The translations under genes and the position numbers were made by a program. Positions 8,175-14,448 of a DNA stretch of 64,000 nucleotides are shown here, piece by piece. The DNA is taken from assembly GCA_937867335.1 (NCBI GenBank), contig CALMKX010000238.1, forward strand, positions 1-64,000. The letters run 5' to 3'. The stretch comes from an uncultured Acidobacteriota bacterium. Lineage in GTDB: Bacteria; Acidobacteriota; Thermoanaerobaculia; Multivoradales; SZUA-115. The notes below the pieces were generated by a model, which made no database searches, was not told where the DNA came from, and was given only the letters and a program-made list of their open reading frames with translations. Each line of letters begins with the position of its first letter. The first letter of the stretch is position 1.

Positions 8175-8204
8175 TTGACAAACAGGACTGACGCGGTCCA
8201 GAAT
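8175..8204 (+). promoter_or_regulatory. Sigma-70 promoter for the apbE operon
   Basis: TTGACA at 8175-8180 is a perfect -35 hexamer. CAGAAT at 8199-8204 (4/6 to TATAAT) follows with an 18-nt spacer. Transcription would begin near 8211, just ahead of the palindrome at 8217-8231 and close to the candidate TTG start at 8216. Confidence 0.6.
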
Positions 8205-8215
8205 CTTGGACGCTG

Positions 8216-9355
8216 TTGAGACTAAATCTCAATAAGAATCCAGAGCCCGCATCCAGCAGAGTCGCTCCCGTGCTGCCGACCGCTCTTCTCCTGCTCGCTT
8301 CGATCCCGGCCTCCGCTGTCGGGGATCCGGCCGAGCCTCCTGTGCGGGTGACACGCCAAGTGCCGATGATGGGCACAGTGCTCGTTCTGACCGTGGAGGG
8401 AGCGGACTACGCACAGGCCCTGGCCGCGAGCGAGGCCGCCGTGCGGGCGCTCGAGGCCGCTGAAGCCCGGCTCTCCACCTGGCGGCCGGAAAGCGAGCTC
8501 TCCCGGCTGAACCGGGCTCCGGTGGGCGAGAGCGTGGCCCTTTCCCCCGAACTCGCCGCGGAACTCGCCGCGGCGCGCCGCTGCTACGAGCTCACCGGCG
8601 GCGCTTTCGACCCGGGAATCGGCCCGGTGCTGGACGCCTGGGGCCTGCGCACCGGCGGGCGGGTACCCGGGGCCGCAGAGCTCGCTGCGGCTCGGGCGGC
8701 CTCCGGCCTGGATGGGCTCGAGCTGCTGCCGGGAGGTCGGGCGGTACGCCGGCGCGAAGGGCTCCGGCTCGAGGAAGGCGCCTTCGGCAAAGGAGCCGGC
8801 CTCGACCGCGCGCTCGAAGCTCTTCGCACCCTGCAACCCCCGGTACGGGCCCTGCTCGACCTCGGCGGCCAGGTGGCGCTGCTACGCCCCCGGGCGGACT
8901 GGCGAATCGCCCTGGCAGACCCCGCGGATCGCGGCCGGCCGGTGGTGGAGCTCTCGGGGATCGAGGGATCGGTCTCCACTTCCGGCAACGGTGAGCGTTC
9001 CTTCGAGGTGGCGGGGCATCGACTCGGCCACCTCTTCGACCCACGCACCGGCCGCCCCGCGGAGGACTTCGGCTCGCTCACCGTGGTGGCGAACTCGGGT
9101 CTCCTCGCGGATTGCCTGTCCACCGGGCTCTATGTGCTGGGCCCGGCTCGGGCCTTTGCCTGGGCCGAGCGGCATCCGGAGGTGGAGGTGCTCGTGCTCG
9201 AGCGGCGAAACGCCAGGCTCCGTGCTCGTGCTACTCGGGGACTCACCGGAAGGCTCCGGAGCCTCGATCGGCAGCTGGAACTGGAGGTCGTCGCGGGCGG
9301 AAAAACAACGACGGCGGATTCGCCCAAGAGCGAAGGTCCGCCGTCTGATTCGTGA
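8216..9355 (+). CDS. apbE: FAD:protein FMN transferase (ApbE)
   Basis: ApbE moves FMN from FAD onto a Thr of exported flavoproteins. Visible features are an N-terminal hydrophobic segment ending ASIPASA (signal peptide without a lipobox Cys), TRQVPMMGTVLVLTVEG, ELTGGAFDPGIGPVLDAWG, EEGAFGKGAGLDRAL, LLDLGGQVALL, HRLGHLFDPRTGRPAED and a C-terminal LADCLSTGLYVLG. Together these cover the family core, including the Mg-binding region. The protein should be periplasmic. The start is uncertain: TTG at 8216 lies inside the palindrome and almost at the predicted transcription start, while GTG at 8270 gives a shorter signal peptide. It is first in an operon whose third gene encodes an FMN-acceptor domain, its likely substrate. 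Confidence 0.92.
   Translation: MRLNLNKNPEPASSRVAPVLPTALLLLASIPASAVGDPAEPPVRVTRQVPMMGTVLVLTVEGADYAQALAASEAAVRALEAAEARLSTWRPESELSRLNRAPVGESVALSPELAAELAAARRCYELTGGAFDPGIGPVLDAWGLRTGGRVPGAAELAAARAASGLDGLELLPGGRAVRRREGLRLEEGAFGKGAGLDRALEALRTLQPPVRALLDLGGQVALLRPRADWRIALADPADRGRPVVELSGIEGSVSTSGNGERSFEVAGHRLGHLFDPRTGRPAEDFGSLTVVANSGLLADCLSTGLYVLGPARAFAWAERHPEVEVLVLERRNARLRARATRGLTGRLRSLDRQLELEVVAGGKTTTADSPKSEGPPSDS
8217..8231. promoter_or_regulatory. Fur-box-like palindrome
   Basis: TGAGACT-A-AATCTCA has the 7-1-7 geometry of Fur sites (compare TGATAAT-N-ATTATCA and the TGAGAAT variant known from pseudomonads). With its flanks it forms TTGAGA-CTAAA-TCTCAA. It lies at about +6 to +20 of the predicted transcript, where a bound repressor would block initiation. 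Fur control is inferred from motif shape only. Confidence 0.5.
9310..9345 (+). repeat. Strong hairpin at the 3' end of apbE
   Basis: The arms GACGGCGGA and TCCGCCGTC (9 bp) enclose an inner TTCGC/GCGAA stem. The hairpin falls within the last codons of apbE, before the porin gene. No T-run follows on the plus strand, but the minus strand would read GTTGTTTTT after it. Within this operon it may be an mRNA stability or processing element, or a partial terminator that sets the apbE:porin ratio. Confidence 0.5.
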
Positions 9356-9415
9356 ACTCGCCGTGCGGCTCACCGCCAAGAGAGGACGCGCGGCTTTTCC
9401 ACAGGAGGATTGTAC

Positions 9416-10792
9416 GTGTTGACGAAGAATAAGGGAACGAAGAACTGGATCGGCCGAAGCGCTCTGGTTCTGCTGTTGCTGGCTCTGCCGGCAAGCGGAG
9501 CCGAGGACCGCGTGGGCGAGCTCGAGAAGGAGATCGCCCAGCTGAAGGCGGAGGTTGCCGCTCTGAAGGAAGCGGGCTCTTCCCCGGCCACGGCCGAGCT
9601 CGAACGGAAGATCGAAGTGCTCGCCCAGGAAATCGAACAGCTCAAGCTCGGCGAAGCAGCTCCCCAGGCGAGCGAGAGCGTGAACGGGCTGGGGCCCGCG
9701 GCGTCGAAGGTTTACCACTCGCGCTCGGGTGTTTCGATCGGCGGCTACGGCGAGATGGTCTACCAGGCCCCGGACTCGAGCCGGGACGACGGCTCGGCCT
9801 CTGGCGAGAAGAAAGAGCTCGACTTCCTCCGTGGCGTGTTCTACATCGGCTACAAGTTCAGCCCGAAGTGGGTGTTCAACTCGGAAATCGAGTTCGAACA
9901 CGCCAAGGCCGGGGAGGAGTCCGAAGGGGAGGCGGCCGTGGAGTTCGCCTACCTCGAGTACTTCTGGCGGCCGGAGCTCGGCTTCCGTGCCGGCTTGCTG
10001 CTCTTGCCGGTGGGGCTGATCAACGAGCTCCACGAACCGCCGGTGTACCTGGGAGCGCGCCGGCCGGACGTCGAGCGCGTGATCCTGCCCACCACCTGGA
10101 GGGAGAACGGTGCCGGCGTCTTCGGTTCCGCCGGAGGCTTCGACTATCGCGCCTACGTGGTGGCCGGCTTGAAGGCCGAGGGCTTTTCCGCCGAGGGGTT
10201 GCGCGAGGGCCGACAGGAGGGTTCGGAGAGCCTGGCGGAGGACCTGGCCTTCGTGGGCCGGTTGGACTATCGCGGCCTGCCAGGGCTCCTGGCCGGGGGC
10301 TCGCTCTATCTGGGCAAGTCCGGCCAAGGCCTCGAGGCGGCTTCCGGCGGCAAGATCGGTGCGCGAACGCAGATCTTCGAGGGGCACCTCGAGTGGAAGT
10401 ACCGTGGCCTTCAGCTGAGGGCCCTGGCCGCACGAGCCGAACTCGGCGACGTGGCGCGGCTCAACCAGGCTCTCGAACTCGAGGGGCCGGATTCGATCGG
10501 CAAGCGGCTCGAGGGCTACTACCTCGAGGCCGGGTACGACGTGCTCTCGAGGCTCGGCCGCGGCGGTGAGCAGCAGCTGATTCCTTTCGTGCGCTACGAA
10601 GCCGTGGACACGCAAGCGGCGGTACCGAGCGGCTTTGCCCGTAACCCCGAGAACGATGTCGAGAGCTTGACGCTCGGCCTCTCCTACAAGCCCTTCGAGC
10701 GGGTGGTGATCAAGGCCGACTACCAGAACTACGACAACGGCGCGGGCTCTGGCCTGGACCGGTTCAATGTGGCCCTGGGCTACACGTTCTAG
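9416..10792 (+). CDS. Outer-membrane porin with N-terminal coiled coil
   Basis: The 458-residue protein has a signal peptide (hydrophobic stretch ending LALPASGAE). A heptad coiled coil follows (VGELEKEIAQLKAEVAALKE, then ELERKIEVLAQEIEQLKLG). The rest is a long beta-barrel of alternating strands that ends LGYTF, with the C-terminal Phe expected for BAM-dependent assembly. It resembles phosphate-selective porins (OprO/OprP class). GTG at 9416 is preferred because AGGAGG lies 7 nt upstream; the in-frame TTG at 9410 is too close to that site. It is the second gene of the apbE operon, and the next gene starts 26 nt before its stop. The substrate is unknown; operon context suggests iron or another redox-active solute. 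Confidence 0.85.
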   Translation: MLTKNKGTKNWIGRSALVLLLLALPASGAEDRVGELEKEIAQLKAEVAALKEAGSSPATAELERKIEVLAQEIEQLKLGEAAPQASESVNGLGPAASKVYHSRSGVSIGGYGEMVYQAPDSSRDDGSASGEKKELDFLRGVFYIGYKFSPKWVFNSEIEFEHAKAGEESEGEAAVEFAYLEYFWRPELGFRAGLLLLPVGLINELHEPPVYLGARRPDVERVILPTTWRENGAGVFGSAGGFDYRAYVVAGLKAEGFSAEGLREGRQEGSESLAEDLAFVGRLDYRGLPGLLAGGSLYLGKSGQGLEAASGGKIGARTQIFEGHLEWKYRGLQLRALAARAELGDVARLNQALELEGPDSIGKRLEGYYLEAGYDVLSRLGRGGEQQLIPFVRYEAVDTQAAVPSGFARNPENDVESLTLGLSYKPFERVVIKADYQNYDNGAGSGLDRFNVALGYTF

Positions 10793-11324
10793 CAAGCCGC
10801 TCGTTGCCGGCTTGCTGCTGCTCGGCCTGGCGGCCGGGGCGCAAGGAGCGCCACTGCTTTCGGTGGAAGAGGCCCTGAAGCTCGCCTACCCGGGCTGCCA
10901 GATGGAGCGTCGCACCGTGTTCTTGACCGACGCTCAGCTCGCCCGCGCGCGGGTCACCGCCGGAGTGGCGGTCGAGAGCGCTTTGGTCTATCCCTATCGG
11001 GCGAGCTGCGACGGCAAGCCAGGAGGCACGGCCTACTTCGACAGCCACCGGGTGCGAACGGAGAACGAAACGCTGATGGTGGCCCTCGATGCCGAGGGCC
11101 GCGTGCTACGCCTCGAAGTGGTGGCCTTCGCCGAGCCGCCGGATTACCTGCCCCGCCCGCCGTGGTACCAGCAGTTCCAGGGCCAACGGCTGGGGCCGGA
11201 GCTCGACCTGGGCCGCGGGATTCGCGCCGTCACCGGCGCCACCCTCACGGCCCGGGCCACCACCGAGGCCGTGCGCCGAACGCTGGCTCTCGACCAGGTG
11301 CTGCGCGAGGTCGCCGCGCCATGA
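10767..11324 (+). CDS. FMN-binding domain protein, predicted ApbE substrate
   Basis: This 185-residue exported protein has a hydrophobic signal segment (PLVAGLLLLGLAAGAQGAP). Its C-terminal FMN-binding domain contains RAVTGATLTARATTEAVRR. This fits the acceptor consensus [S/T]GA[S/T]x[T], in which the last Thr (about residue 161) receives FMN covalently. Cys44 and Cys81 may form a disulfide. ATG at 10767 overlaps the porin gene by 26 nt and its stop overlaps the next ATG (ATGA), so expression is coupled. It probably acts as a one-flavin electron carrier in the periplasm between the membrane protein encoded next and an unknown acceptor. Confidence 0.85.
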   Translation: MWPWATRSSKPLVAGLLLLGLAAGAQGAPLLSVEEALKLAYPGCQMERRTVFLTDAQLARARVTAGVAVESALVYPYRASCDGKPGGTAYFDSHRVRTENETLMVALDAEGRVLRLEVVAFAEPPDYLPRPPWYQQFQGQRLGPELDLGRGIRAVTGATLTARATTEAVRRTLALDQVLREVAAP

Positions 11325-11749
11325 ACCGTTTCGAAGCCTGGGCGGTCCATCTTGGCAACTTGTTGGTGGGCCTCACTGGCCTGGTCTACGCCTGGATGCG
11401 CTACCTGCTGAGCCCGGCGGACCCCTACGCCGTGGTCAACCACCCGTGGCAGCCCGCTGTCCAGCATGCCCATGTGCTGGCGGCGCCGCTCCTGGTGTTC
11501 GCCTGCGGGTTGATCTGGCGGCACCACGCGTGGAAGCAGCTGGCGACCGGCGTACCCGTGCGCCGCCGGAGCGGCCTTGCCCTGCTGCTCACCTTGGCTC
11601 CGATGGTCGCCTCCGCTTACCTCCTGCAGACGGCGGTCGATCCCGCCTGGCATCGTGCGTGGGTGTGGCTGCACCTTGCCAGCTCGGGCCTGTGGCTGGT
11701 GGGATCCCTAGCCCACCTGCTCGCTCCCTCACGACCTCGCTCCCGGTAG
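11321..11749 (+). CDS. Four-helix membrane protein, possible b-type cytochrome
   Basis: The 142-residue protein has four predicted transmembrane helices (about residues 10-30, 48-67, 84-105 and 111-133). Nine histidines occur, several at or within helices (His10, 49, 51, 68, 69, 111, 118, 132), a pattern suited to bis-His heme ligation. I recognise no named family. It begins within the stop of the FMN-binding gene (ATGA) and ends the operon. In this setting it is a plausible quinol- or heme-linked membrane electron donor for the flavoprotein. Heme binding is an inference; a structural role cannot be excluded. Confidence 0.75.
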   Translation: MNRFEAWAVHLGNLLVGLTGLVYAWMRYLLSPADPYAVVNHPWQPAVQHAHVLAAPLLVFACGLIWRHHAWKQLATGVPVRRRSGLALLLTLAPMVASAYLLQTAVDPAWHRAWVWLHLASSGLWLVGSLAHLLAPSRPRSR

Positions 11750-11874: not shown

Positions 11875-14448
11875 ATGAGCTCGGTGATCCGCTCGACGTT
11901 CCGCTACGTTGGTCTCCTCTCCCTTGGCTCTGGCCTCGCTCTGTTCGTAAGCGCCTGCGGCGAGCGCACCGACGCTGCCAGCGGCGTGGCCGCGCCGTCG
12001 GCCGTGGCCCACGTCTTCGACGATGTGGCTCAGGCGGCCGGGATCGATTTCACCCACCACCGGCCGATCCTGGATCACAAGCTCGACCGCATCATGCCCT
12101 GGGTCTCGAGCGTGGGCGCCTCGGTAGCCGCCGGCGACTACGATCGCGACGGTTTCATGGACCTCTACGTCTCGGATTCGAACCTCGGCCAGCCCAACCG
12201 GCTCTACCACAACAACGGCGACGGCACCTTCACCGACGTCGCCCAGAAGGCCGGCGTGGCCTTCGTGAACAACCAGGACGGCGCCACCATGGATGCCCTC
12301 TGGGGCGACGTGGACAACGACGGCTGGGAGGACCTCTACGTCGTGCGCTGGGGCCGTAACTTGCTATTCCACAACAACGGCAACGGCACCTTCACCGACG
12401 TCACCGCCCGCCGCTTCCGGCGCACCGACGGCAAGCCCGGGACCGATTGGAAGAACGGCAACGCCGCCGTGTTCCTCGACTACGACCACGACGGCCGGCT
12501 CGACCTCTACGTGGGGAACTACTTCAAGGACCACGATCTCTGGCATCTGACCACCACGAAGATCATGCACGACAGCTTCGAGACCGCCCGCAACGCCGGT
12601 ACCAACGAGCTTTTCCACCAGGAGCCCGACGGCAGCTTCCGCGAGATGGGCGCCAAAGCCGGAGTGGCCGACGTAGGCTGGACGCTGGCCGTGGGCGAGG
12701 GGGACCTCAACAACGACGGTTGGACGGACCTCTACTCCGCGAACGATTTCGGCCCGGACCAGATGTTCCTCAACCGGGGCGACGGCACCTTCGAGAACAT
12801 CACCCAGACCGCCATCGGCTTCGACACCCGCAAAGGCATGAACGCCGAGATCGCGGACTTCAACAACGATGGCTGGCTGGACGTCTACGTCACCAACATC
12901 ACCACCGCCGAGTACCTGCAGGAAGGCAACATGCTCCTGCTCAACAACGGCCTGGATGCCACCGGCAAGCCCACTTTCACCGACATTGCGCTCGAGGCCG
13001 GGGTGTACGACGGCGGCTGGGGCTGGGGCGCCAAGTTCCTCGACTACGACAACGACGGCGATCTCGACTTGATCTCCGGCAATGGCTTCATCAGCGCCGG
13101 CGAGGGCAACTTCTGGTACGACCTCGCCACCTTCACGGTGACCGGCAAAGACTCTTCGGACGCCGCCAACTGGCCGCCGATCGGCGACCGCTCCTTCTCC
13201 GGCTACGAGCAGGTGCGGTTCTTCGTCAACGACGGCCAGAGCGCCTTCACCGAACGGGCGACCGACGTCGGCCTGGACACCACCCGCGACGAACGCGGCG
13301 TGGCCTATGTGGACTTCGACAACGACGGTGACCTCGACCTCTACCTCGCCAACCAGCACCAGAAGCCGGAGCTCTATCGCAACTCCGGAACTCCCGGGCA
13401 GCACTGGCTGGCCGTTCGGCTGGAGGGAGACCCGACCCGAGAGACCAGTCGCGACGCGATCGGCGCACGGGTCACCATCCTAGCCGGCGGCAAGCCCCAG
13501 ATGCGCGAGCGCGACGGCGGGAACGGCTTCTCCGGCCAGAGCGATCCGCGGCTCTATTTCGGCCTCGCAACCGCCACCCAGGTGGAGCGAGTGGAGATCC
13601 GCTGGCCCGACGGCGGCATCCAGGCTCTGACCGACGTGCCGGCGGATCAGCTGCTCGCGGTGCGTCAGGATCCGAGCCACTACACTGGCGAAAGCGCCAT
13701 CCACTTCGGAGCGGCCGAGAAGCGAACCACCAGTCACGAGGCAGCGCCGCAGCCGAAGATCGATCCGAAGGAGCTCGACCGCCAGCTCGGCCTGATGGAG
13801 CAGGAGCTCGAGCAGAAGGGCCTCGGCTTCTCCCAGGCCAGCCGCTATCGCGCTCGTGCGGTGGACGGCAGCCAGCATGATCGCTCCATCCGCTTCTTCG
13901 AGCGCTTGGTCGCCAAGGACCCGAAGGACCCCGCTGCACACCTCCAGCTCGCCTGCGCCTACGTGGACAAGATCCCCACCTGCGGCGGTCTGGCTGCCGT
14001 GGTGTGCAAGGGCCGGCTGGCGCGCCGCTCCCTCGACCAGCTCGACGTCGTGCTCGAAGCCGATCCAGACAACTGGGCCGCGCGCTACTGCCGGGGCATC
14101 AACCACCTGCACTGGCCCCGCGCCCTGCTGCACAACGACGCCGCGGCCGAGGACCTCGCCTACTGCACCAAGCTCCAGGCCCGGCGTGGCGACGCCCAGC
14201 CCTACTACCTGAGGATCTACGTGGCCCTGGGCGACGCCTACACCAAGGCCGGCGAGGTGGCCAAAGCCCGCGAAGCGTGGCAACAAGGCCTTGCACTCTT
14301 CCCGACCGCTTCGGAGCTGAAGGAGCGCCTGGCGATCGCCGACGAGGACGCCCTGCTCAAGTTCGTCGAGAAGCACTGCAGCCTCGAGCAGCCGATCGAC
14401 ACCGACCTCTCCTTCCTCGATCGGCAGACGGGCGTGCCGGTCGAGTGA
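11875..14448 (+). CDS. FG-GAP/ASPIC-UnbV repeat lipoprotein with C-terminal TPR
   Basis: The 857-residue protein has a lipoprotein signal (hydrophobic stretch then LFVSACGE, lipobox Cys about 25). About seven FG-GAP/VCBS repeats follow, each with a calcium-loop motif of the type DYDRDGFMDLYV, DVDNDGWEDLYV or DFDNDGDLDLYL, forming a beta-propeller. Next is an ASPIC/UnbV domain (GQHWLAVRLEGD, GARVTILAGG, VERVEIRWPDGG). The last 220 residues are helical and TPR-like (DPKDPAAHLQLACAYVD, YYLRIYVALGDAYTKAGEVA). It should sit in the envelope and bind ligands or proteins. The family is common in Acidobacteriota and Planctomycetes; its function is not established. It is monocistronic and ends just before a tRNA cluster. 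Confidence 0.88.
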   Translation: MSSVIRSTFRYVGLLSLGSGLALFVSACGERTDAASGVAAPSAVAHVFDDVAQAAGIDFTHHRPILDHKLDRIMPWVSSVGASVAAGDYDRDGFMDLYVSDSNLGQPNRLYHNNGDGTFTDVAQKAGVAFVNNQDGATMDALWGDVDNDGWEDLYVVRWGRNLLFHNNGNGTFTDVTARRFRRTDGKPGTDWKNGNAAVFLDYDHDGRLDLYVGNYFKDHDLWHLTTTKIMHDSFETARNAGTNELFHQEPDGSFREMGAKAGVADVGWTLAVGEGDLNNDGWTDLYSANDFGPDQMFLNRGDGTFENITQTAIGFDTRKGMNAEIADFNNDGWLDVYVTNITTAEYLQEGNMLLLNNGLDATGKPTFTDIALEAGVYDGGWGWGAKFLDYDNDGDLDLISGNGFISAGEGNFWYDLATFTVTGKDSSDAANWPPIGDRSFSGYEQVRFFVNDGQSAFTERATDVGLDTTRDERGVAYVDFDNDGDLDLYLANQHQKPELYRNSGTPGQHWLAVRLEGDPTRETSRDAIGARVTILAGGKPQMRERDGGNGFSGQSDPRLYFGLATATQVERVEIRWPDGGIQALTDVPADQLLAVRQDPSHYTGESAIHFGAAEKRTTSHEAAPQPKIDPKELDRQLGLMEQELEQKGLGFSQASRYRARAVDGSQHDRSIRFFERLVAKDPKDPAAHLQLACAYVDKIPTCGGLAAVVCKGRLARRSLDQLDVVLEADPDNWAARYCRGINHLHWPRALLHNDAAAEDLAYCTKLQARRGDAQPYYLRIYVALGDAYTKAGEVAKAREAWQQGLALFPTASELKERLAIADEDALLKFVEKHCSLEQPIDTDLSFLDRQTGVPVE

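Follow-up and report, generated by a model that had tools for sequence, protein, structure and literature searches.

Flavinylation systems have been tied to iron reduction, with five classes of membrane carriers distinguished, with iron links to VIT1, TonB receptors and P19, and with Fur control and neighbouring iron transporters reported for the PepSY-like clusters (Meheust et al., 2021; PMC8238504). Heme b has been shown in DUF4405 and FezC, small membrane proteins with central histidines, whose genes adjoin apbE or which occur in ferrosomes (Huang et al., 2024; PMC10979944). In Geobacter and Desulfuromonas, Fur-controlled porins are found next to feoAB, and the delta-proteobacterial FUR box reads WTGAAAATNATTTTCAW (PMC545781). 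The locus described here occupies positions 8175-11749 of a 64,000-nucleotide stretch (the window; positions 1 to 64,000 of contig CALMKX010000238.1) from an uncultured Acidobacteriota bacterium, and carries on its plus strand a cassette of four genes: apbE, an outer-membrane porin gene, a gene for a periplasmic FMN_bind protein and a gene for a 142-residue four-helix inner-membrane protein. We consider it likely that these four genes constitute an iron-starvation-induced periplasmic ferric reductase working with the ferrous-iron transporter FeoAB.

The cassette resembles the PepSY-like and MsrQ-like iron reductase systems in bringing together ApbE, an acceptor of covalent flavin and a (here predicted) heme-binding membrane protein. 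It differs from them in several ways. DUF2271 is the usual partner of PepSY, whereas the acceptor here is an FMN_bind protein; the carrier belongs to a four-helix family outside Pfam and is accompanied by a 16-stranded porin; and the partner transporter is FeoB, as against VIT1 and TonB receptors in the published clusters (PMC8238504), a paper whose text contains neither FeoB nor the word "porin". No PepSY_TM, MsrQ, NapH, DsbD or NqrB-RnfD Pfam domain was detected in the four proteins of the window.

The preliminary description of this DNA had proposed four tightly ordered genes, with overlaps of 26 and 4 nt, behind a single promoter, and this layout holds at the same positions. The first gene, apbE (8216-9355, its start being questionable as explained below), encodes a secreted flavin adenine dinucleotide (FAD):protein flavin mononucleotide (FMN) transferase matching PF02424 at 1.7e-62. 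It is followed by the porin gene (9410-10792), whose product shows a signal peptide, a periplasmic coiled coil (approximately residues 28-83) and a 16-stranded barrel, by the FMN_bind gene (10767-11324; PF04205, 1.4e-6) and by the four-helix gene (11321-11749). The ApbE and FMN_bind matches were both above the Pfam cut-off, and the porin and the four-helix protein yielded no Pfam match above it. The porin and FMN_bind genes overlap by 26 nt (10767-10792), and the FMN_bind and four-helix genes by 4 nt, in the form ATGA (11321-11324). A sigma-70-like promoter, TTGACA-N18-CAGAAT, lies at 8175-8204 and is the only promoter-like site between 8050 and 11900, where 0.1 would be expected in shuffled sequence.

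A search for the same gene order, suggested with that description for Acidobacteriota, recovered it well past this phylum. Among 99 relatives, homologues of the FMN_bind protein were found in 47 and of the four-helix protein in 42, nearly always adjacent to each other. In 16 of the 20 larger loci the order apbE-porin-FMN_bind-four-helix was retained with all genes adjacent; one further locus has an apbE match in the usual place whose start could not be set by script, another carries the four-helix gene inverted beside the other three, and two, belonging to one genus, have no apbE nearby. In that genus apbE lies elsewhere in the genome (10/10 genomes). Most of the 20 loci even share the ATGA overlap between the FMN_bind and four-helix genes. 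A species-level scan of bacteria and archaea, with one genome per species, turned up 90 proteins related to the four-helix protein. The best 80 of these comprised 41 loci with the full order, 23 with porin-FMN_bind-four-helix and eight with apbE elsewhere in the same gene run. Neighbouring genes were assessed by clustering of open reading frames on a reduced set, and "conserved neighbours" that were antisense frames or specific to one lineage were disregarded. Among Planctomycetota, two complete isolate genomes (Pla86 and Pla163) have the cassette; the metagenome bins that carry it have the labels Acidobacteriota, Gemmatimonadota, Latescibacterota, Verrucomicrobiota and Myxococcota. The module also occurs in Pseudomonadota isolates, where it lies on plasmids from Sphingomonas, Ideonella and Methylocystis. 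Single phylum labels may be wrong because most carriers are metagenome bins, which the isolates and plasmids are not; the cassette spans at least four phyla and probably seven. In an even sample of Acidobacteriota, the four-helix protein was encoded in 82 of 297 genomes. With order and ATGA overlap recurring class-wide, and the order recurring across phyla, the conservation of the cassette is far beyond chance.

Both ApbE and the FMN_bind protein have signal-peptide-like N termini, so that a secreted transferase is co-encoded with its predicted extracytosolic substrate. The preliminary description had pointed to a threonine near residue 161 as the flavin acceptor, a proposal that the alignments support. 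Thr161 (codon 11247-11249, within TGATLT; alignment A2) is the predicted site of covalent FMN attachment; of 21 close homologues, 20 have Thr there and one has Ser. The [T/S/A]GATLT motif is conserved, and in a wider set of 77 homologues the acceptor motif, [S/T]GATxT, was recognised in 69, with eight falling outside the strict pattern used. The nearest solved relatives of the protein are RnfG subunits (E 6e-4), and with NqrC and RnfG it shares the FMN_bind domain and the (here predicted) ApbE-dependent Thr-FMN. Unlike those subunits, it is soluble and periplasmic, with neither a lipobox nor an anchor helix, and no Nqr or Rnf subunits are encoded in the cassette.

The four-helix protein was compared across 81 aligned homologues, in which H41, H51, H69, H118 and H132 were unvarying (81/81). 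This invariance was not built into the search, because the scan pattern covers residues 95-103 only. When the Pseudomonadota members were added, the invariant columns were G20, H51, G63, H69, G85, H118 and H132; exactly four histidines and three glycines therefore persist down to approximately 20% identity. The AlphaFold model (predicted local distance difference test, pLDDT, 91.7) contains helices at residues 3-29, 44-76, 83-104 and 108-134, with one histidine pair on helix 2 (His51, codon 11471-11473; His69, 11525-11527) and the other on helix 4 (His118, 11672-11674; His132, 11714-11716; H-x13-H). Loop charges obey the positive-inside rule with both termini cytoplasmic, which places H51 and H118 on the periplasmic face and H69 and H132 on the cytoplasmic face, where they are the predicted ligands of an outer and an inner heme, respectively. 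In Foldseek searches of the PDB, the best matches by probability were hydrogenase-1 cytochrome b (0.99 and 0.97) and cytochrome b6 (0.80), that is, bundles with bis-His heme b. No homology to these proteins was detectable at the sequence level, sequence searches of the PDB, with the protein and with its profile as queries, returning noise only, and the cassette, unlike them, has no hydrogenase or bc/b6f partner. In the model, the histidine layout is that of a membrane-spanning di-heme b cytochrome, for which heme is predicted. The preliminary description had made heme ligation by the histidines of this protein a point to check; four of them have proved invariant, also in distant Pseudomonadota, and the predicted four-helix fold that carries them has a cytochrome b as its best match in the PDB.

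No Pfam or NCBIfam family was matched above cut-off by the four-helix protein, and its assignment to DUF4405, cytochrome b561 or any other member of these collections was rejected on this basis. The window protein itself gave no match to PF14358 (DUF4405). Weak matches to that family were present in 6 of 21 homologues (best E 0.0043), one Ideonella relative reached 17.4 bits against a cut-off of 26.7, and matches to cytochrome b561 among the homologues were likewise sub-threshold. In hhalign comparisons helices 3-4 only were aligned to DUF4405, with both histidines matched (E 1.3e-4 in one comparison, probability 54%). DUF4405 has six helices, whereas the cassette protein has four in one chain. 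The two families probably share a deep ancestry, yet the protein is not to be filed as a DUF4405 member. We conclude that it functions like the PepSY, MsrQ and DUF4405 carriers. That it should instead be a heme-free structural anchor or a quinone-binding partner is improbable in our view: its failure to reach any Pfam cytochrome family and the presence of a different membrane protein in its slot in four related genomes would suit such a role, which is opposed by the four histidines kept to approximately 20% identity, paired on helices 2 and 4 in the manner of b cytochromes, by the sub-threshold DUF4405 and b561 matches and by the structural matches to cytochromes b. The four genomes concerned (G080, G089, G092 and G095; loci L213-L216) retain apbE-porin-FMN_bind, and the membrane protein that occupies the four-helix slot has conserved histidines of its own in a VTHxH...LTH pattern, making a non-orthologous replacement of the electron donor possible.

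Parts of the module are also exchanged in its wider family. One relative (G023) carries a second, divergent module, DUF6662-FMN_bind-four-helix, with the same histidines and a TonB receptor gene nearby (L217, C35:276000-287000). Its distant four-helix paralogue, used as a query, matched proteins on the Sphingomonas, Ideonella and Methylocystis plasmids; the query P0004 gave no match against the plasmids. The plasmid sets comprise an outer-membrane protein, an FMN-binding protein, an FAD:protein FMN transferase and a "hypothetical protein" that corresponds to the four-helix protein. The outer-membrane proteins of Ideonella (33% identity) and Methylocystis (25%) are homologous to the porin of the window, and that of the Sphingomonas plasmid is DUF6662. 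Given these varied plasmid barrels, it follows that barrel, FMN_bind protein, ApbE and four-helix protein travel together and that the barrel is exchangeable. A second, diverged ApbE-like gene was observed directly downstream of the cassette, on the opposite (minus) strand, in several relatives (L085 3427-4401, L086 8438-9463, L090 8448-9473 and L091 8443-9534).

The iron link of the cassette is strong. The Fur-like site noted earlier is real: the operator TTGAGACTAAATCTCAA, a 17-bp palindrome at 8216-8232, has the same layout as the 17-bp palindrome WTGAAAATNATTTTCAW of the Geobacter/Desulfuromonas Fur regulon, for which no ApbE, FMN_bind or four-helix protein has been described (PMC545781). 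With up to one mismatch allowed, the operator pattern occurs at two places in the 5.56-Mb genome: in the window and at C209:23038, before feoA-feoB (C209:23038-25377; L206 1539-3878), where it ends 12 bp before the feoA ATG. Both sites are exact for TTGAGA-N5-TCTCAA, and no third full site of this form was found in the genome. The shorter TGAGA-N5-TCTCA was discarded as a regulon-wide probe; since it gave four sites as against three for a reversed control, only the longer TT..AA form is informative, and the two further sites of the shorter form both lack the flanking TT..AA. Across 80 named loci (1.08 Mb), 22 exact operator sites were found, where 0.01 would be expected from base composition and two scrambled controls gave 0. 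At the cassette start (600 bp upstream to 300 bp inside), an operator with up to two mismatches was present in 39 of 68 named loci, as compared with 17 of 1029 control segments. The consensus across loci is TTGAGACTGAGTCTCAA, and the operator also stands ahead of the cassette in other phyla.

Gene order points the same way. In five Thermoanaerobaculia genomes (L066, L068, L069, L071 and L072) fur-feoA-feoB-apbE-porin-FMN_bind-four-helix run in one direction, and fur adjoins apbE in further relatives. In bins labelled Latescibacterota or Gemmatimonadota (L094, L120 and L123), the order is a DtxR-type regulator, then the cassette, then feoA and feoB, in some cases with PepSY_TM between these two; feoA-feoB lies upstream of the cassette in two Verrucomicrobia-labelled bins (L133 and L134) and divergent from it in a Kiritimatiellia bin (L136). 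These arrangements represent several separate joinings of the same parts. Iron regulation, which the preliminary description had suggested from the operator, is supported by the site common to cassette and feoAB in one genome and by the joining of fur and feoAB to the cassette in others. The PepSY_TM gene between feoA and feoB was observed at L094 8902-10137 and L120 5719-6954, where PepSY_TM and four-helix carriers may both serve one Feo system.

Some relatives adjoin genes for multicopper oxidases or cytochrome c peroxidase, and FMN_bind systems are modular (PMC8238504), as would be expected if the cassette, under iron control, carried electrons to a different periplasmic substrate, such as oxidised thiols, peroxide or copper, when iron is scarce. 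This is unlikely, as feoAB is the sole non-cassette transporter that recurs in the same gene run across phyla. In Methylocystis heyeri, the four-part plasmid module is located between multicopper oxidase and ferritin-like genes (L221 1-7079), a context that could point to the oxidation of iron, or to some metal different from iron, in this lineage.

The porin model (pLDDT 83) has 16 strands and matched OmpC/OmpF-type porins in Foldseek (E approximately 1e-12). Six of 21 homologues match Porin_O_P (PF07396; best 4.2e-7), the window protein does not, and some homologues weakly match BBP2; of the Fur-controlled Geobacter/Desulfuromonas porins, one is likewise weakly Porin_O_P and one lies beside feoAB. 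An outer-membrane barrel co-encoded with a redox protein, an association that is nearly constant here, is also seen in MtrCAB and other porin-cytochrome conduits, and would fit a dissimilatory or extracellular electron-transfer system in which the porin holds the flavoprotein and electrons leave the cell. We regard this as very unlikely. A 16-stranded barrel of the OmpC/OmpF type is too narrow for a protein domain, which makes it a pore for small solutes and leads us to reject a conduit of electrons built around the FMN protein; the cassette, unlike MtrCAB, has a flavin instead of a multiheme cytochrome; and the iron operator that it has in common with feoAB speaks for assimilatory regulation. 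Another possibility, a variant of the ferric reductase proposed above and compatible with it, is a starvation-induced reductase for a specific ferric siderophore or other chelate, with a selective porin. The loop region 200-239 of the porin is strongly conserved (H208, E209, P210, R218, E222, P227, T229 and W230), which hints at a particular solute, and the distant paralogous module adjoins a TonB receptor gene; nevertheless, the variant is somewhat doubtful, no siderophore biosynthesis or TonB receptor gene recurring beside the main cassette.

In the Feo-linked ferric reductase that we favour, iron limitation would cause Fur to leave the operator at 8216, and the operon and the separately located feoAB would be transcribed together. 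Through ApbE the periplasmic FMN_bind protein would receive its FMN at Thr161, and the four-helix protein would hold two b hemes, the inner one between H69 and H132 and the outer one between H51 and H118. Electrons drawn from the quinones of the membrane, or from a donor in the cytoplasm, are predicted to pass to the inner heme, the outer heme and the covalent FMN in turn, and the reduced flavoprotein would then reduce Fe(III), the presumed acceptor, or a ferric chelate in the periplasm. The chelate, as the putative cargo of the co-encoded porin, would enter through it, and the resulting Fe(II) would be imported by FeoB. Several observations weigh against this proposal. The Foldseek E-values of the cytochrome b matches are modest (0.25-1.5) despite the high probabilities, and the two histidines are farther apart in helix 2 (18 residues) than in helix 4 (14). 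In 29 of the 68 loci no operator was found in the searched stretch. Relatives including those in Methylocystis (multicopper oxidases) and Ideonella (cytochrome c peroxidase) have no feo neighbour, so that the acceptor may differ there. Moreover, the 16-stranded porin may be a mere general chelate pore, and the direction in which electrons flow does not follow from the neighbouring genes.

The called apbE start, TTG at 8216, is the first codon of the operator palindrome and lies approximately 12 nt past the -10 box; because of this position the true start is uncertain, and the next in-frame candidate is GTG at 8270. Start calls near operators of the TTGAGACTAAATCTCAA type may be systematically wrong. 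The next gene of the window (11875-14448), outside the cassette, encodes an 857-residue FG-GAP/ASPIC-UnbV/TPR protein (CRTAC1-like).

The principle of flavinylation-based assimilatory iron reduction is already known; the class of carrier, the presence of a porin and the pairing with Feo appear to be new. No description of this four-gene set was found in the open-access literature, to which the search was confined, subscription papers lying outside it, and the cassette may sit unclassified among the clusters of PMC8238504 or PMC10979944. A broader proposal, for and against which we see the balance as even, is that the four-helix protein opens an additional class of transmembrane electron carriers linked to flavinylation, being among the smallest single-chain di-heme b cytochromes, and that the FMN_bind protein, ApbE and a dedicated porin join it in a so far undescribed route of TonB-independent reductive iron uptake (porin, periplasmic Fe(III) reduction, FeoB) that is conserved in several diderm phyla.

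FeoB imports Fe(II), and the iron of aerobic soils and seawater is Fe(III). To our knowledge, no periplasmic Fe(III)-reducing enzyme is known for most diderm phyla. For Acidobacteriota, Planctomycetota and other phyla the operon offers a concrete candidate for such a reductase, and both its gene order and the operator that it shares connect it with Feo. The operon also gives a likely function to "hypothetical proteins" in roughly a quarter of the sampled Acidobacteriota genomes, and adds a minimal model cytochrome, as predicted, to the membrane carriers linked to flavinylation.

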